Positions 7,761 through 14,269 of a stretch of DNA of 64,000 nt are shown piece by piece. The position numbers and the translations under genes are program-made. The notes under the pieces were generated by a model, which was given only the letters and a program-made list of their open reading frames with translations, made no database searches and was not told the origin of the DNA. Position 1 is the stretch's first letter. Every line of letters begins with the position of its first letter. This stretch comes from Rhodospirillales bacterium (GTDB lineage: Bacteria > Pseudomonadota > Alphaproteobacteria > Rhodospirillales > Thalassospiraceae). The stretch covers positions 120,308 through 184,307 of the forward strand of contig JAHQVT010000005.1 of NCBI GenBank assembly GCA_019634165.1, in the 5' to 3' direction.

Positions 7761-9839
7761 CTAGTTCTTTGATTTTTGATGGGCGGAAACCACGGCATCG
7801 GCTTGTTTTCCGCCAAGTTCCTGCATGTGGGAATAGCTTCTGGTGAAAAAGCCGGTTCCTTGGGTTAGCGAACGCAATTCGGTGACCATATCAGCCGTTT
7901 CAGATGTCGGCATTTGGACGTCGATTTCGTCCCAACCTTGCCAGCCATCTTTGGCATTAAAGCCAAGGATTTGTCCGCGCCGTGTACTGACAAGGCGCTG
8001 GGCCTTGGATGTGAAATCAGACGGGATCGAGATGGTGCATTTATCCACCGGTTCTAACAAAACCGGTCCTGCGACCTTTAAGGCCTCGCCAATGGCAATA
8101 CGCCCGGCCATCTGGAATGCCTGATCGGAACTATCAACTGCGTGAAAGGAACCATCGACCAGCTTGACCGCAACATCCACGACGGGAAAGCCAAGTGAAC
8201 CGGACCGCAAGCCATCACGGACCCCTTTTTCCACAGCCGAGATATATTGCCGGGGGATCGCACCGCCCACAATATGTTCGCTAAATTCAAAGCCATCCCC
8301 GCGAGCGAGCGGACGCAGTTCAATCGCGGCATCGCCAAATTGTCCGTGACCGCCGGTTTGCTTTTTATAGCGCCCGCGTGCCGATACGGGTTTTCGGATG
8401 GTTTCAAGATAGCCGGTTAGAACCGGTGTTGGGGTTATTTCAAGGTGATAATGTTCGGCCAAATGGGCCATGGCGCATTGCAGATGAATATCGCCCTGAC
8501 CCGCTAGGACAAGCTGCCCTGTACTCGCGTGATGGCCAAAGGAAATGGATCGGTCCTGTTCGCAAAGATGGCGTAATGCTTCGGTCAGTTTAACGTCGTC
8601 TCCGGGTTTTGTGACCGCAAGCCCGGTTTCATAAAGCGGTGGCAGGGGATCGGGCCACAAAGTTTCCATTTCCCCATCGCTGCTGACCAATGATCCGGTC
8701 CGAAGTTTTTCCATTCTTGGCAAACCGACGATGGCACCGGTGGTACCAAGATCAAGTTTCTCATGCTTATCGGCATAGAGGGTACAAAGCCCGGAAACCT
8801 TATCTGTGCCAAGCGCGTCGCCGTTTTTGATCTGCCCCGATAAAATGCGGGCAAAACAAAACCGCCCAGCATGTGAAAGATGGGCGGTTTTAAAAATCTG
8901 CAGAACGGTTTGGGCTGGGTCTGGATCAATGCCCAGACGATGTGCGCAAACATCCGATGATGGGGCTTCGTGGCGTAGTGCCTTTAGCAATCGAATGATG
9001 CCATGATCATGTTCGCCCGACCCAAAGAACACTGGAACAATAAGGTCATTGGCCAGATCACGTTCAAGATTTTCATAGATGGTTTCAGTCGCAGGGTTTT
9101 GGTCTTCGAGAATTTGTTCAAGCAACCTGTCGTCAAAATCAGCCAGTGCTTCAAGCAATCCTTCGCGGGTTTGGCTTTCGCGAGTTGCAACGGTTGAAGG
9201 CATTGCGATCAGTTTGGAGGGTTGTCCTTCGAGATACTGATAGGTACGTTCTGACACGATATCGACAAAGCCGGTGATGGGTTCATCTGGGGAATTCATA
9301 TCGCGGATTGGAATTTCGCGGATCACCAAGGGGCGTTCCGAGATGGATTGAAGGGCATCAAAACTGTCTTGCAGACGGAAACTGGTATGGTCGGTTTTAT
9401 TGATGAAAATCAGATGTGGTATCCGGTTGCGATCAAGAAACTTCAATGTCGGGGCAACCGTCATCACCCGACTTGGGTCGGGCTCAACGACAACAATGGC
9501 AACATCGCAAATCATGGCGGCTTCGCGCGCATCTTGGGCAAAATCGACAGAGCCCGGACAATCAATGAAATGCCATTCTTCACCAAGATAGGTGGTTTGG
9601 GCACAGGTAAGTTCGGTGCTCATTTCACGGGATCGGGATTCTGCATTGTAATCGCCAACGGTGTTGTGATCACGGATGGATCCTTTGCGGTGGATGCGCC
9701 CGGTTGCGGCAAGCAGGCTTTCAAGCAGTGATGTCTTACCGCTTGAATAAGGGCCGATCAGGGCGGCAACGCGCGGTGGGTGCGCTGGGGATGTGGTTGG
9801 TTGGGGTGATGTCGAACTGGCACTGCTGGGCATTGGCAT
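7761..9839 (-). CDS. Elongation factor G-like GTPase
   Basis: P-loop GPYSSGKTSLLESLLA, RSREMSTELTCAQTTY, DCPGSVDF, NKTD; EF-G domain IV/V organisation but divergent P-loop. Confidence 0.9.
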   Translation of the reverse strand: MPMPSSASSTSPQPTTSPAHPPRVAALIGPYSSGKTSLLESLLAATGRIHRKGSIRDHNTVGDYNAESRSREMSTELTCAQTTYLGEEWHFIDCPGSVDFAQDAREAAMICDVAIVVVEPDPSRVMTVAPTLKFLDRNRIPHLIFINKTDHTSFRLQDSFDALQSISERPLVIREIPIRDMNSPDEPITGFVDIVSERTYQYLEGQPSKLIAMPSTVATRESQTREGLLEALADFDDRLLEQILEDQNPATETIYENLERDLANDLIVPVFFGSGEHDHGIIRLLKALRHEAPSSDVCAHRLGIDPDPAQTVLQIFKTAHLSHAGRFCFARILSGQIKNGDALGTDKVSGLCTLYADKHEKLDLGTTGAIVGLPRMEKLRTGSLVSSDGEMETLWPDPLPPLYETGLAVTKPGDDVKLTEALRHLCEQDRSISFGHHASTGQLVLAGQGDIHLQCAMAHLAEHYHLEITPTPVLTGYLETIRKPVSARGRYKKQTGGHGQFGDAAIELRPLARGDGFEFSEHIVGGAIPRQYISAVEKGVRDGLRSGSLGFPVVDVAVKLVDGSFHAVDSSDQAFQMAGRIAIGEALKVAGPVLLEPVDKCTISIPSDFTSKAQRLVSTRRGQILGFNAKDGWQGWDEIDVQMPTSETADMVTELRSLTQGTGFFTRSYSHMQELGGKQADAVVSAHQKSKN

Positions 9840-10249
9840 CTCCTTGATCAGGAAGACCGATATCCCACGAAGCTTGTGATAAGCTTATCAGCGGCTCCAT
9901 GTGTTGCTGTCGCGAACAGCAGCCGGTCTGAACGTTTCAAATGCCCGGTTTTGTCCGGGTTGTATTTCTATGATGGGGTTTTAAGCAAAATCAGTGTGCA
10001 GTGTATTGTGCACTTCGTGCAATGGCTTTGCGCCTTGTCGGGCGGTTTGTACATGCTTTAAATCGGCCATTCGATCTTGTATCGGCCTTGTATTGCTTGG
10101 CATACCCCTCAATAGATCATGGTTAATGCATGTTATATCAAGGGGTTGGTTCGACTGTGCCCTTATTTGACCACAATTCGCCCCGAAATCGCCTAATGCA
10201 GCCTGTTTTCCTGCCTTGTTTATCAGGCAAATTCATAACTGTCAGCCGA

Positions 10250-10399
10250 GGACGCGGTCAGCAAAATTTGTCCCCCCTCACGACGCTAGACCGGCTTTTT
10301 CAGGGTGTTCCCCCTCCTGAAATGCCACGGCTGACTCGGTCTCCCCAAGACCATAATGACCCCGAATAGTTGGGGCGGGTTTATCCCGCCCCTTTTTTT
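10250..10399 (+). ncRNA. Predicted structured small RNA 1 (C-rich loops, intrinsic terminator)
   Basis: Enclosing stem GTCAGC(10257-10262)/GCTGAC(10330-10335); hairpin TTTCAGG-GTGTTCCCCCT-CCTGAAA (10298-10322); hairpin GGTCT-CCCCA-AGACC (10338-10352); terminator GGGGCGGG-TTTAT-CCCGCCCC-T7 (10372-10399). 5' end not defined. Confidence 0.6.
10372..10399 (+). terminator. Intrinsic terminator of predicted sRNA 1
   Basis: 8-bp perfect GC stem followed by seven T. Confidence 0.85.
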
Positions 10400-10503
10400 G
10401 TCCGGTTTTGGTATTTGGTGCGGGCGCCCTAATTGCCCCAATTCGCCCCCAAATGGTCATGAAACACCGATTTTTGAGCCCCATTTCAACGGCATATTCC
10501 TTT

Positions 10504-10682
10504 TTGTCGGATGCGCAAACATCGATGCTGTGCCCTCCCTCACAACGCATCGAGGCCCGCTTAGGATGCTCTCTCCCCGAAGTGTCCTTTACCCCAACGG
10601 GCAAGGCACCGCATCCGATCGGTCTCCCCAAGACCATCTGTCCCCAAAGCCCGGGCGAGCATTATGCTCCCCGGGCTTTTAA
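10504..10682 (+). ncRNA. Predicted structured small RNA 2, paralogue of sRNA 1
   Basis: Enclosing stem TCGGATGCG(10507-10515)/CGCATCCGA(10610-10618); hairpin CGATGC-T-GTG-CCCTCCCT-CAC-AAC-GCATCG (10523-10552); hairpin GGTCT-CCCCA-AGACC (10621-10635), shared 19-mer TCGGTCTCCCCAAGACCAT with sRNA 1; terminator 10646-10680. Confidence 0.6.
10646..10680 (+). terminator. Intrinsic terminator of predicted sRNA 2
   Basis: AAAGCCCGGG-c-GAGCAT-T-ATGCTC-CCCGGGCTTTT long hairpin with one bulged C. Confidence 0.85.
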
Positions 10683-10793
10683 TTTCTGTATCTGGTGTGA
10701 AATATGATTTTGCTTGCCGTATTAGGCAGAGAGGCAGAGGGAGAAGTGCAGGAGTAGCGCAGCGGTGATTGGAGTGCGGCCTTTGGCGCGCGA

Positions 10794-12179
10794 TCAGCGG
10801 GCAACCTGATCTGGGGCTTGGACCGAGTTCTTTTCGGACAAAGCAATCGGAGCGATGCTAAGCACCTGGGTTGGTGTTTCTCGTCCGCGCACGGTTACGT
10901 CACCACGCGGAGTCCACGCCGGGATGTCGGCGTGATCGCCGCAGGATTGCACGGTTTCTTCGGTCGCAAGAATATAGCTGCCATATTGCTTGTTAAGTGT
11001 TTCAAGCCGTGCGGCAATATTGACGTTATCGCCATGGACGGTGAAGGTCAGGCGGTTTTCGGACCCAATCGCGCCAATCACGATTTCACCGCTATTGATG
11101 CCGCATCGGGTTTTAAGCTTACCGCCAAAGCTGTAGACGCGTGTTTGGGAAATTTCCTGAATGGCCAATGCTGTGCGGATGGCATTCAAAGCATGTTCTG
11201 AAACCGGCGTGACAGCGTTGAAGGTTATCAGCATGGCATCGCCTTCGAACTGGGTGATGACGCCCCCAAATCGGGTAATCACCGCATTGGTTTCGGTGAA
11301 ATACTCATTAAGCATCGTTGCCAGTTCTTTTGGGCTGAGTTTTTCAGAGACCGTTGAAAAACCTTCAATGTCAGTGAACATCACAGTTGCCACAACCGCT
11401 TCACCATCACCGGGCTTGATTTGGTGTTCGGCATGGGTGATGCGATCGGCAATTTCCGGTGAGACAAATCGTGATAAATCACGGGCGGCGATTTCATCAC
11501 TGACCGCGCGGATAAACGATCGTTTGGCGCGCATAACGGCAATGGCCAGCACAAGCGATACCAAGACAATGGCAATGATCTTGTCGATCTCGGCCCCGAT
11601 CAGAATCGAGTTCGATGTGAGATAGGTGACGTAGTCACGCGTGATCATGCTTTTGCCGCCCTCGCTCCAGAGAACGTAGCCTGTAAGGGCGATCCAGCCG
11701 ACAGCGGCGGTGCCACCGGCAATCAGGATATAGCGCGGATCAAACCGCAAACTGCGCAATGAAATGAAGATGAAGACATAAAGCACCGTCGGTGCTTTGA
11801 GATAGAAACTTGCCGGTTGCATATACTGGATATGGAAACTCCAGATCAGGACCATCAAAAGCCCAATATCGGCAATAACCGATAGGGTGAGAAACCTGCT
11901 GGTCAAGGCATTGCGATAGGCAAGGGCAAGTCGTTTTAGCGTGAACAGATAATACAGACCAAGCGCCCAAGGGACTGGATGGATGCCGTCACTCATCGAG
12001 GTTTTTGGCGCAATGGCATATAGGCTGGCAAAGATCGTCACCAATAAAAGCTGAACCCAGCCAATAAGCTTTTCGCTTTCGTCCTGTTGTTTCTTGATGG
12101 CGGACTGCACCCGTTCTGGAAGACGGGTTTTGGTGTCTTTGCCAAACAGGAATGCGCCAAGTGTGCTTCTCATTGCCAA
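10794..12179 (-). CDS. Membrane-bound class III adenylate/guanylate cyclase
   Basis: N-terminal multi-TM region, C-terminal VMFTDIEGFSTVSEKLSPKELATMLNEYFTETNAVITRFGGVITQFEGDAMLITF and GDNVNIAARLE cyclase motifs. Confidence 0.92.
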   Translation of the reverse strand: MAMRSTLGAFLFGKDTKTRLPERVQSAIKKQQDESEKLIGWVQLLLVTIFASLYAIAPKTSMSDGIHPVPWALGLYYLFTLKRLALAYRNALTSRFLTLSVIADIGLLMVLIWSFHIQYMQPASFYLKAPTVLYVFIFISLRSLRFDPRYILIAGGTAAVGWIALTGYVLWSEGGKSMITRDYVTYLTSNSILIGAEIDKIIAIVLVSLVLAIAVMRAKRSFIRAVSDEIAARDLSRFVSPEIADRITHAEHQIKPGDGEAVVATVMFTDIEGFSTVSEKLSPKELATMLNEYFTETNAVITRFGGVITQFEGDAMLITFNAVTPVSEHALNAIRTALAIQEISQTRVYSFGGKLKTRCGINSGEIVIGAIGSENRLTFTVHGDNVNIAARLETLNKQYGSYILATEETVQSCGDHADIPAWTPRGDVTVRGRETPTQVLSIAPIALSEKNSVQAPDQVAR

Positions 12180-12342
12180 CCGCTCCTGATTGCGATCATC
12201 GGGCCGTGCCCGGTTGCGTCATTGGGGCCATAGTGAAAGGTTGCCGTCCCCTTGCCAAGTAAGCAGGTGATGACGTTTGATCACGCTTGCGTGCTAAGGC
12301 TTTGTGCTGAGGCGTGGATGTTGGGACAGGGATGAAAAAGGC

Positions 12343-12373
12343 AAAAAAAAGCCGGGCAACAAATGTGCCCGGC
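12343..12373 (-). terminator. Intrinsic terminator of predicted sRNA 3
   Basis: GCCGGGCA-CATTTGT-TGCCCGGC followed by TTTTTTTT on - strand. Confidence 0.85.
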
Positions 12374-12530
12374 AAGTTTATCAGGGAGGCTTCACGTCTG
12401 GGAGACGTAGGACCCTTCGCAGGGCCCTGGGTAAGCCGGACAGGGCGTCCGGCTAAGACCGAAATTCGGTCAGGGAGAAAACTCTGTACCGCGCTGCGAC
12501 GTGTGTCGCTGCGGTTCGAGAGAGAAGATA
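12343..12530 (-). ncRNA. Predicted structured small RNA 3 (minus strand), or structured leader of the cyclase gene
   Basis: On - strand: hairpins GCGAC-ACAC-GTCGC, GACCGAATTTCGGTC, AGCCGGAC-GCCCT-GTCCGGCT, AGGGCCCT-GCGA-AGGGTCCT, ACGTCT-CCC-AGACGT, linker CCTCCC, terminator GCCGGGCA...TGCCCGGC-T8. 5' end not defined. Confidence 0.55.
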
Positions 12531-12709: not shown

Positions 12710-12744
12710 AAAAAAATGCCGGTAGCAGGGGGGGCGCTACCGGC
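12710..12744 (-). terminator. Intrinsic terminator of predicted sRNA 4
   Basis: 9-bp perfect stem GCCGGTAGC/GCTACCGGC then T-run on - strand. Confidence 0.85.
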
Positions 12745-12850
12745 ACAATTCAACAGGGAGGTTTACGTCTGGGAGACGCAAGGAATCTTGGGGGAGATTC
12801 CAGTGCCGGATAACGTTCCGACGGACGGATCATGCGGAGATCAGCGAAGA
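12710..12850 (-). ncRNA. Predicted structured small RNA 4 (minus strand), paralogue of sRNA 3
   Basis: On - strand: GGAATCT-CCCCCA-AGATTCC, CGTCT-CCC-AGACG, CCTCCC linker, terminator GCCGGTAGC-GCCCCCCCT-GCTACCGGC-A-T7; CGTCTCCCAGACGT(g)AA(g)CCTCCCTG block shared with sRNA 3. 5' end not defined. Confidence 0.55.
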
Positions 12851-13269
12851 TTGGAGCGATTTCGCTTTTGCGTCTGCTCACAACCTATGATGCAAATATA
12901 GGTTGGGTTATATTACATTTGAAGTATAAAAACTTCAGACCAACCATGCGTCAGATGCATGGCAGAAAAATGGCAGTAATTTTAAGTAATTATGACCAGC
13001 CCCGCGTCAAACGCACTTCGTTGGTTGCTAAAAATCCTTGTTCGAAGGTCTTAGGTAAGCGTTTTTGCATGAACCCTAGGGTTAAAATCACGCGCAGATT
13101 GTTATGAACCCTTTCTTGCGCGCAACATTGTTGCAATTTTTAAGAGATACTTTTGTAAAGTTCTGTCGCTAAAGAGGTTTTTGGACGCTGTGAGTGGGGA
13201 CGGCGGCCAAGGGTTTAGATGTGTGGTTTTAGGCGCGCGAATATCGCAAAGTTTGGAAAGTCCTGAAAC

Positions 13270-13324: not shown

Positions 13325-14269
13325 TTATTTGTCGCTGGCAGCTTTGGCCGCAGCGGCCTTTACCTTGACCTTGGTGATTTCTTCGATCAGGAAGTCACGG
13401 AAAACGGCAATACGTTTGGAATGACGCAATTCTTCGGGATAAACGAAGTAGGCATCAAAGCTTGGCCCTTCGAGTTCCGGCAGGATGCGCACCAGATTAC
13501 TATCAGCCGGAACCAAATAGTCCGGCAGCGCAGAAATCCCCAAACCAGATTCTGTCGCACGGAAAATACCATAGATATTATTCAGTTTCAGAATCGGGCG
13601 CATATCGGGTTTGAACTGCTGGGCTGTGGCCATCATCCAGTTGACGTTCGATACCGGTGGGCGTGCATCCGCACCATAAATGATCAGGCGGTGGTCTTTA
13701 AGTTCTTCTGGTGTTTTAGGCATGCCGTACTGTTTGATATATTCCGGCGCTGCAAACACGTGATAGCGCAATGTCATTAATTGGCGCTGAACCAGATCGG
13801 CCTGACGTGGCGGTTGCATACGGATTGCAACATCGGCTTCGCGCATGGCAAGGTCGAGTTCCTCGTCATTGAGAACCAGCGACAATTCGATTTCCGGGTA
13901 GCGTTCAAGGAATTCATTGATGCGCGGGGTCAACCAGGTTGAACCAAAGGCCACCGTGGTCGTAACCTTAAGCGGGCCACTTGGGCGTTCCTTGGATTCG
14001 CGAATACGGGCCTCGGCCATCGACAATTTGGCGAAAACGTCGTGGGCTGTGCGATATAACAACTCGCCCTGTTCGGTCAGGATAAGGCCACGGGCATGAC
14101 GATGGAACAGCGGAACCTTCACACTTTCTTCAAGTGCGCTGATCTGCCGGCTTACGGCCGACTGGCTCAGATTAAGGTTTTCCCCCGCATGGGTGAAGCT
14201 TCCAGCTTCTGCAACAGCGTGAAAAACACGCAGCTTGTCCCAATCCATAGACCTGCTCCTAGATGTCAC
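13325..14269 (-). CDS. LysR family transcriptional regulator
   Basis: MDWDKLRVFHAVAEAGSFTHAGENLNLSQSAVSRQISALEESVKVPLFHRHARGLILTEQGE HTH. Confidence 0.93.
   Translation of the reverse strand: MTSRSRSMDWDKLRVFHAVAEAGSFTHAGENLNLSQSAVSRQISALEESVKVPLFHRHARGLILTEQGELLYRTAHDVFAKLSMAEARIRESKERPSGPLKVTTTVAFGSTWLTPRINEFLERYPEIELSLVLNDEELDLAMREADVAIRMQPPRQADLVQRQLMTLRYHVFAAPEYIKQYGMPKTPEELKDHRLIIYGADARPPVSNVNWMMATAQQFKPDMRPILKLNNIYGIFRATESGLGISALPDYLVPADSNLVRILPELEGPSFDAYFVYPEELRHSKRIAVFRDFLIEEITKVKVKAAAAKAASDK

Follow-up and report, generated by a model that had tools for sequence, protein, structure and literature searches.

Tandem structured RNAs of Thalassospira form a genus-restricted family of putative multivalent anti-Shine-Dalgarno riboregulators

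Two consecutive RNA genes on the plus strand

The window analyzed here, a 64,000-nucleotide stretch of Rhodospirillales contig JAHQVT010000005.1, contains at positions 10165 to 10681 of the plus strand two consecutive units, in each of which a conserved upstream region precedes a folded RNA of about 160 to 180 nt and its terminator. The flanking EF-G-like (7761 to 9839) and adenylate/guanylate cyclase (10794 to 12179) genes were not detected in some Thalassospira loci, where the RNA pair stays. An earlier note on this DNA had described tandem paralogous structured RNAs on the plus strand, a description strongly supported by the folds, the elements that the two loci share, and the recovery of homologues throughout the genus (see below).

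The first RNA, sRNA 1 (10240 to 10399, +), is a type I copy, always the first in its array, with its ends placed according to the upstream region and terminator; the second, sRNA 2 (10503 to 10681, +), is a type II copy that scores 137 bits with R1, a covariance model built from 20 sRNA 2-type copies. Both transcripts fold better than all of 200 dinucleotide shuffles (z = -4.1 for sRNA 1 and -6.4 for sRNA 2). Judging from sequence, each locus would be a separate transcription unit with its own upstream region and terminator, and transcription probably extends slightly 5' of the interval initially given (10250 to 10682), to about 10240. The putative promoter regions (10165 to 10240 and 10430 to 10505, +) carry AATTCGCCCCGAAATCGCC at 10175 to 10193 and AATTCGCCCCCAAATGGTC at 10440 to 10458, with the -10-like sequences GGCAAATTC at 10226 to 10234 and GGCATATTC at 10491 to 10499; the upstream AATTCGCCCC repeat noted previously lies within 10171 to 10189 and 10436 to 10454. 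A similar element at the same spacing is found across 47 distinct copies. Its pattern has only two exact matches genome-wide, both at these RNA genes, which suggests a shared dedicated regulator of the pair.

In sRNA 1, the closing stem P1 (10241 to 10335) pairs GTCAGCCG (10241 to 10248) with CGGCTGAC (10328 to 10335). It is followed by the P4 hairpin GGUCU-CCCCA-AGACC (10338 to 10352), unchanged in nearly all copies, and by an intrinsic terminator (10372 to 10399) of eight G-C pairs and then seven T residues. In sRNA 2, P1 (10506 to 10619) pairs GTCGGATGCG (10506 to 10515) with CGCATCCGAT (10610 to 10619) and encloses the P2 hairpin (10522 to 10550), with a loop showing GCCCUCCCUC, and the P3 domain (10552 to 10602), in which an outer stem (about 10552 to 10557 with 10598 to 10602) is predicted to contain an inner hairpin with a CUCCCCG loop plus a single-stranded ACCCC. 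The same P4 hairpin (10621 to 10635) and a linker, AUCUGUCCCC, then lead to a predicted terminator hairpin with a short T tract (10648 to 10681). The long-range closing stems are thus both slightly longer than first reported, 8 bp in sRNA 1 and 10 bp in sRNA 2. The 19-mer TCGGTCTCCCCAAGACCAT attributed to both loci is exact at 10336 to 10354 and 10619 to 10637, the shared loop block is present as originally described, the invariant hairpin GGUCUCCCCAAGACC is common to both genes, and CCCUCCCU (10533 to 10540) does sit in a hairpin loop, that of P2, in the predicted fold of sRNA 2.

Covariation of the closing stem and conservation of C-rich loops

In the 20 type II copies, pairing is kept in 97.2% of cells, and 11 of 25 pairs show changes on both sides. 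The covariation score, 0.363 versus 0.191 ± 0.014 in shuffled alignments, was reached in none of 500 shuffles, while slid-partner controls scored at most 0.101 with pairing reduced to 27 to 44%. The signal covers P1 and P2; in P1, 7 of 10 pairs have changed on both sides and 99% of cells remain paired. The enclosing stem of sRNA 2-type copies therefore passes the kind of covariation check that the earlier note had proposed. That note had also read compensatory change from the differing closing stems of the two window copies; these two are insufficient by themselves, and it is the sRNA 2-type homologues that reveal it. The 16 sRNA 1-type copies compared also have the stem, in a nearly invariant form: its GUCAG/CUGA(C/U) core hardly varies and consequently gives little covariation signal of its own. 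Plus-strand transcription is supported by the G-U intermediates in P1, which would read as A-C mismatches on the complementary strand. P4 varies too little for covariation testing. Compared by eye, the P3 outer stem also appears to covary, its arms differing among copies and staying complementary (GCCCG/CGGGC, ACCUU/AAGGU, ACCG/CGGU, and CCUGC/GCAGG).

Hairpin loops predicted for the 47 distinct copies are rich in C (GCCCUCCCUC, GUCCCCCCUC, UCCCC, UCUCCCCAAGA), a few exceptions among the minimum-energy folds aside. C runs have an unpaired probability of 0.84, compared to 0.64 after shuffling and 0.33 for the remaining C residues. In these folds the stems drift while loop content stays C-rich, the conserved exposed part being CCUCCC/UCCCC. 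Loop content kept despite stem drift is a usual sign of functional loops, as the modeled structures would have it here. Protein coding was rejected, as the distance between closing stem and P4 differs among copies such that all three residues modulo 3 occur.

A genus-restricted family with variable copy number

DNA searches recovered homologues of sRNA 1 and sRNA 2 in 29 of 29 Thalassospira genomes, and the 24 records retrieved when 85,462 species were scanned for exact GGTCTCCCCAAGACCATNTGNCCCC matches all belong to this genus. With the covariance model, no credible member was found in 268 other genomes of the order at an E value of 0.05 (three weak matches, fewer than chance expects) or in 287 genomes of the class at 0.001; plasmids likewise yielded no relative. 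The taxonomic family was represented among the searched genomes by Thalassospira only. No Rfam 15 family could be assigned at either gathering or permissive thresholds. Overall, the data define a real, conserved structured RNA family, restricted to the genus in the genomes searched and absent from Rfam 15.

Two copies are usual; five genomes (G010, G011, G014, G018, and G020) have tandem arrays of five to seven. A tree built from 68 copies places the first-position (type I) copies in a single clade with support of 1.0. Within the expanded arrays, copies 2 and 3 cluster by position, indicating that part of the expansion is older than the species concerned; copies 4 to 7 are more alike. On contig C1 of G010, copy 5 and the cyclase gene lie about 41 kb from copies 1 to 4 (3332518 to 3373489), a gap most simply, and probably, explained by insertion into the sRNA array.

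Five sequences from a published list of Thalassospira "miRNAs" (PMC6413936) were also checked. Only one, TAACGTCTGTCCTTCGGATT, fell in an examined locus, near the LysR gene and outside the present RNAs: in T. australica (L109, 1197) its position is between lysR and the AbcR-like RNAs, not far from a hairpin-rich stretch resembling a mobile repeat.

An AbcR-like system on the opposite strand

In loci complete enough to compare, the gene order is lrp, trxB, lysR, two AbcR/SorX-like RNAs, the cyclase gene, the present RNAs on the opposite strand, the EF-G-like gene, dps, and an amidase gene. The LysR gene (13325 to 14269, -) adjoins trxB, and its product matches Agrobacterium LsrB (PDB 9HH1; PMC11975290) with 340 bits over 291 residues. 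LsrB has been called unique to Rhizobiales (PMC11975290), yet a close LsrB-like protein is encoded here beside trxB in Thalassospira. Downstream of lysR lie two tandem AbcR/SorX/mmgR-like sRNAs (12711 to 12788 and 12336 to 12413, -), kept in most complete Thalassospira loci, which match the SorX (35.4 and 26.3 bits) and mmgR (28.7 and 26.1 bits) models under the Rfam cutoffs. An LsrB/VtlR-type box, GCATGGTTGGTCT, is located upstream of this pair at 12937 to 12949 (-). The SorX model (RF02784) gave matches at E values up to 0.001 in 93 of 150 genomes of the order, some of them paired, with only three genomes over the cutoff, so that the Rfam model appears to be drawn too narrowly.

Rhizobiales have their tandem AbcR RNAs next to lsrB/vtlR-trxB (PMC7486931, PMC8844928). 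The neighborhood had first led us to expect an AbcR/ar15 identity for the plus-strand RNAs, an identity ruled out by the AbcR-like pair on the opposite strand. With the usual place of AbcR taken by this SorX/mmgR-like pair, the new family represents an additional system, not an AbcR orthologue.

A proposed multivalent anti-Shine-Dalgarno mechanism

The pair belongs to a new Thalassospira sRNA family whose members, by analogy with known riboregulators, probably act as multivalent anti-Shine-Dalgarno (anti-SD) RNAs. Each unit would give one trans-acting RNA of about 160 to 180 nt, in which P1, covarying in sRNA 2-type copies, would close a multibranch 5' domain. The hairpins of this domain, together with P4 and the single-stranded linkers, would expose about four to five CCUCCC/UCCCC tracts that could pair with G-rich ribosome-binding regions of several putative mRNA targets. 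The main effect would presumably be translational repression, possibly with Hfq on the terminator tail.

The precedents for this mechanism are AbcR1/2 and NfeR1, whose exposed anti-SD motifs block ribosome-binding sites (PMC8844928), GsrN, with a C-rich loop that acts on katG (PMC5869019), and the B11/6C RNA, in which C-rich loops engage G-rich leaders (PMC10470900). The exposed C/U-rich seeds expected of a trans-acting anti-SD sRNA are present, and their complementarity to SD regions is generic. Over 344 sampled genes, the loops preferred translation starts to coding sequence as pairing partners (for the P2 loop, 32% versus 17% at -9 kcal/mol or better); reversed loops showed the same preference, which is thus largely compositional and indicates capability, not specificity. 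A genome search for long complements of the P2 loop found no excess (10 matches versus 14 for the backward control). P4 is conserved almost absolutely, more than generic SD pairing would require, and this counts against the anti-SD model.

Alternative readings

The complex, closed multibranch folds look like cis elements, but a role as leaders or riboswitches is extremely improbable: a terminator lies after each RNA, with another copy or a convergent gene beyond it, as many as seven RNAs stand in a row, and no co-directional gene was found directly downstream when looked for, in agreement with the original opinion that these are not leaders. It is unlikely, though the repetition of near-identical loop motifs within each molecule, the invariant P4 loop amid otherwise variable stems, and the two to seven gene copies would all suit it, that the RNAs are titrators whose stable scaffold presents C-rich loops to sequester a single-strand RNA-binding protein, with array expansion raising the dose. 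CsrB/RsmZ RNAs sequester their protein through GGA loops; the conserved loops here are C-rich, not the GGA loops bound by CsrA, and the P2 loop varies among copies (GCCCUCCCUC, GCACUCCCUC, GUCCCCCCUC). We know, moreover, of no titratable C-tract-binding regulator in Alphaproteobacteria. Multivalent C loops able to pair with any G-rich RNA could also form a sponge that captures G-rich partner RNAs, such as another sRNA or a 3' UTR fragment, in place of ribosome-binding sites. We regard this as quite improbable, since no partner was identified and the loops resemble the anti-SD motifs of known translational repressors (PMC8844928).

A further reading concerns origin and is compatible with the anti-SD mechanism: the family might be a divergent branch of the AbcR/SorX/mmgR RNAs that arose when the neighboring AbcR-like pair was duplicated in inverted orientation and the duplicate gained a 5' domain. 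The 3' layout is alike (a hairpin with a UCUCCC(C) loop, a CCCC/CUCCC linker, and a terminator), SorY and mmgR are matched weakly (at 23.6 and 19.6 bits), and the family adjoins the AbcR-like pair in most complete loci. Such descent is nevertheless doubtful, as all matches are far under the gathering scores and none is to ar15, searches of order and class genomes found no intermediate form outside the genus, and no LsrB-type box lies upstream of these RNAs. Only tentatively, the RNAs might be a genus-specific class of multivalent C-loop RNAs, with up to seven independently promoted genes, that acts by dosage opposite and beside the AbcR-like system, either buffering translation initiation globally or titrating a C-tract-binding protein.

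These results add, for a cultivable marine genus, a well-supported family of structured sRNAs that Rfam 15 lacks. The family lends itself to natural tests of how the dosage of sRNA genes (two to seven copies) and multivalent C loops shape translation, and of how a new sRNA family originates beside an older one, the AbcR-like RNAs with LsrB/VtlR.

Comparison with known RNA families

The genome's 6S RNA (RF00013) lies elsewhere (C13:1400-1560, 79 bits), and this identity was rejected. AbcR1/AbcR2 (alpha-r15, RF02345) resemble the present RNAs as tandem homologues with several exposed anti-SD motifs, found here in the predicted folds, and in the lsrB/vtlR-trxB neighborhood. They differ in length (114 to 121 nt versus about 160 to 180 nt) and in setting: the present RNAs are on the opposite strand and not directly adjacent to the LysR gene, with two AbcR/SorX-like RNAs and usually the cyclase gene in between, and carry an upstream element of their own in place of the LsrB box (GCAT-N3-TG-N3-T), which in the window is found not upstream of them but upstream of the AbcR-like RNA at 12937 (-). 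The ar15 covariance model gave no match over 10100 to 10760 at E values up to 10 and none genome-wide at 0.05. NfeR1 (alpha-r14, RF02344) likewise holds several redundant anti-SD motifs in one RNA, but is 115 nt long, and the present RNAs have no ar14 match; we know of no enclosing stem of this kind in NfeR1.

The actinobacterial 6C/B11 RNA shares C-run hairpin loops that pair with G tracts near starts, but has two C loops and belongs to an unrelated phylum; the 6C Rfam model found no match here at E values up to 10. Caulobacter GsrN also pairs a C-rich loop with an mRNA 5' leader, but through one main loop, and activates katG expression; it is not known to us as a natural tandem array. For SorX/SorY/mmgR (RF02784, RF02651, RF00519), the SorX model had no match on the present RNAs, and the SorY (23.6 of 111 bits) and mmgR (19.6 of 41 bits) scores fell short of gathering. 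Those RNAs lack a 5' multibranch domain, whereas their hairpin, C-rich single strand, and terminator recur here as the 3' module.
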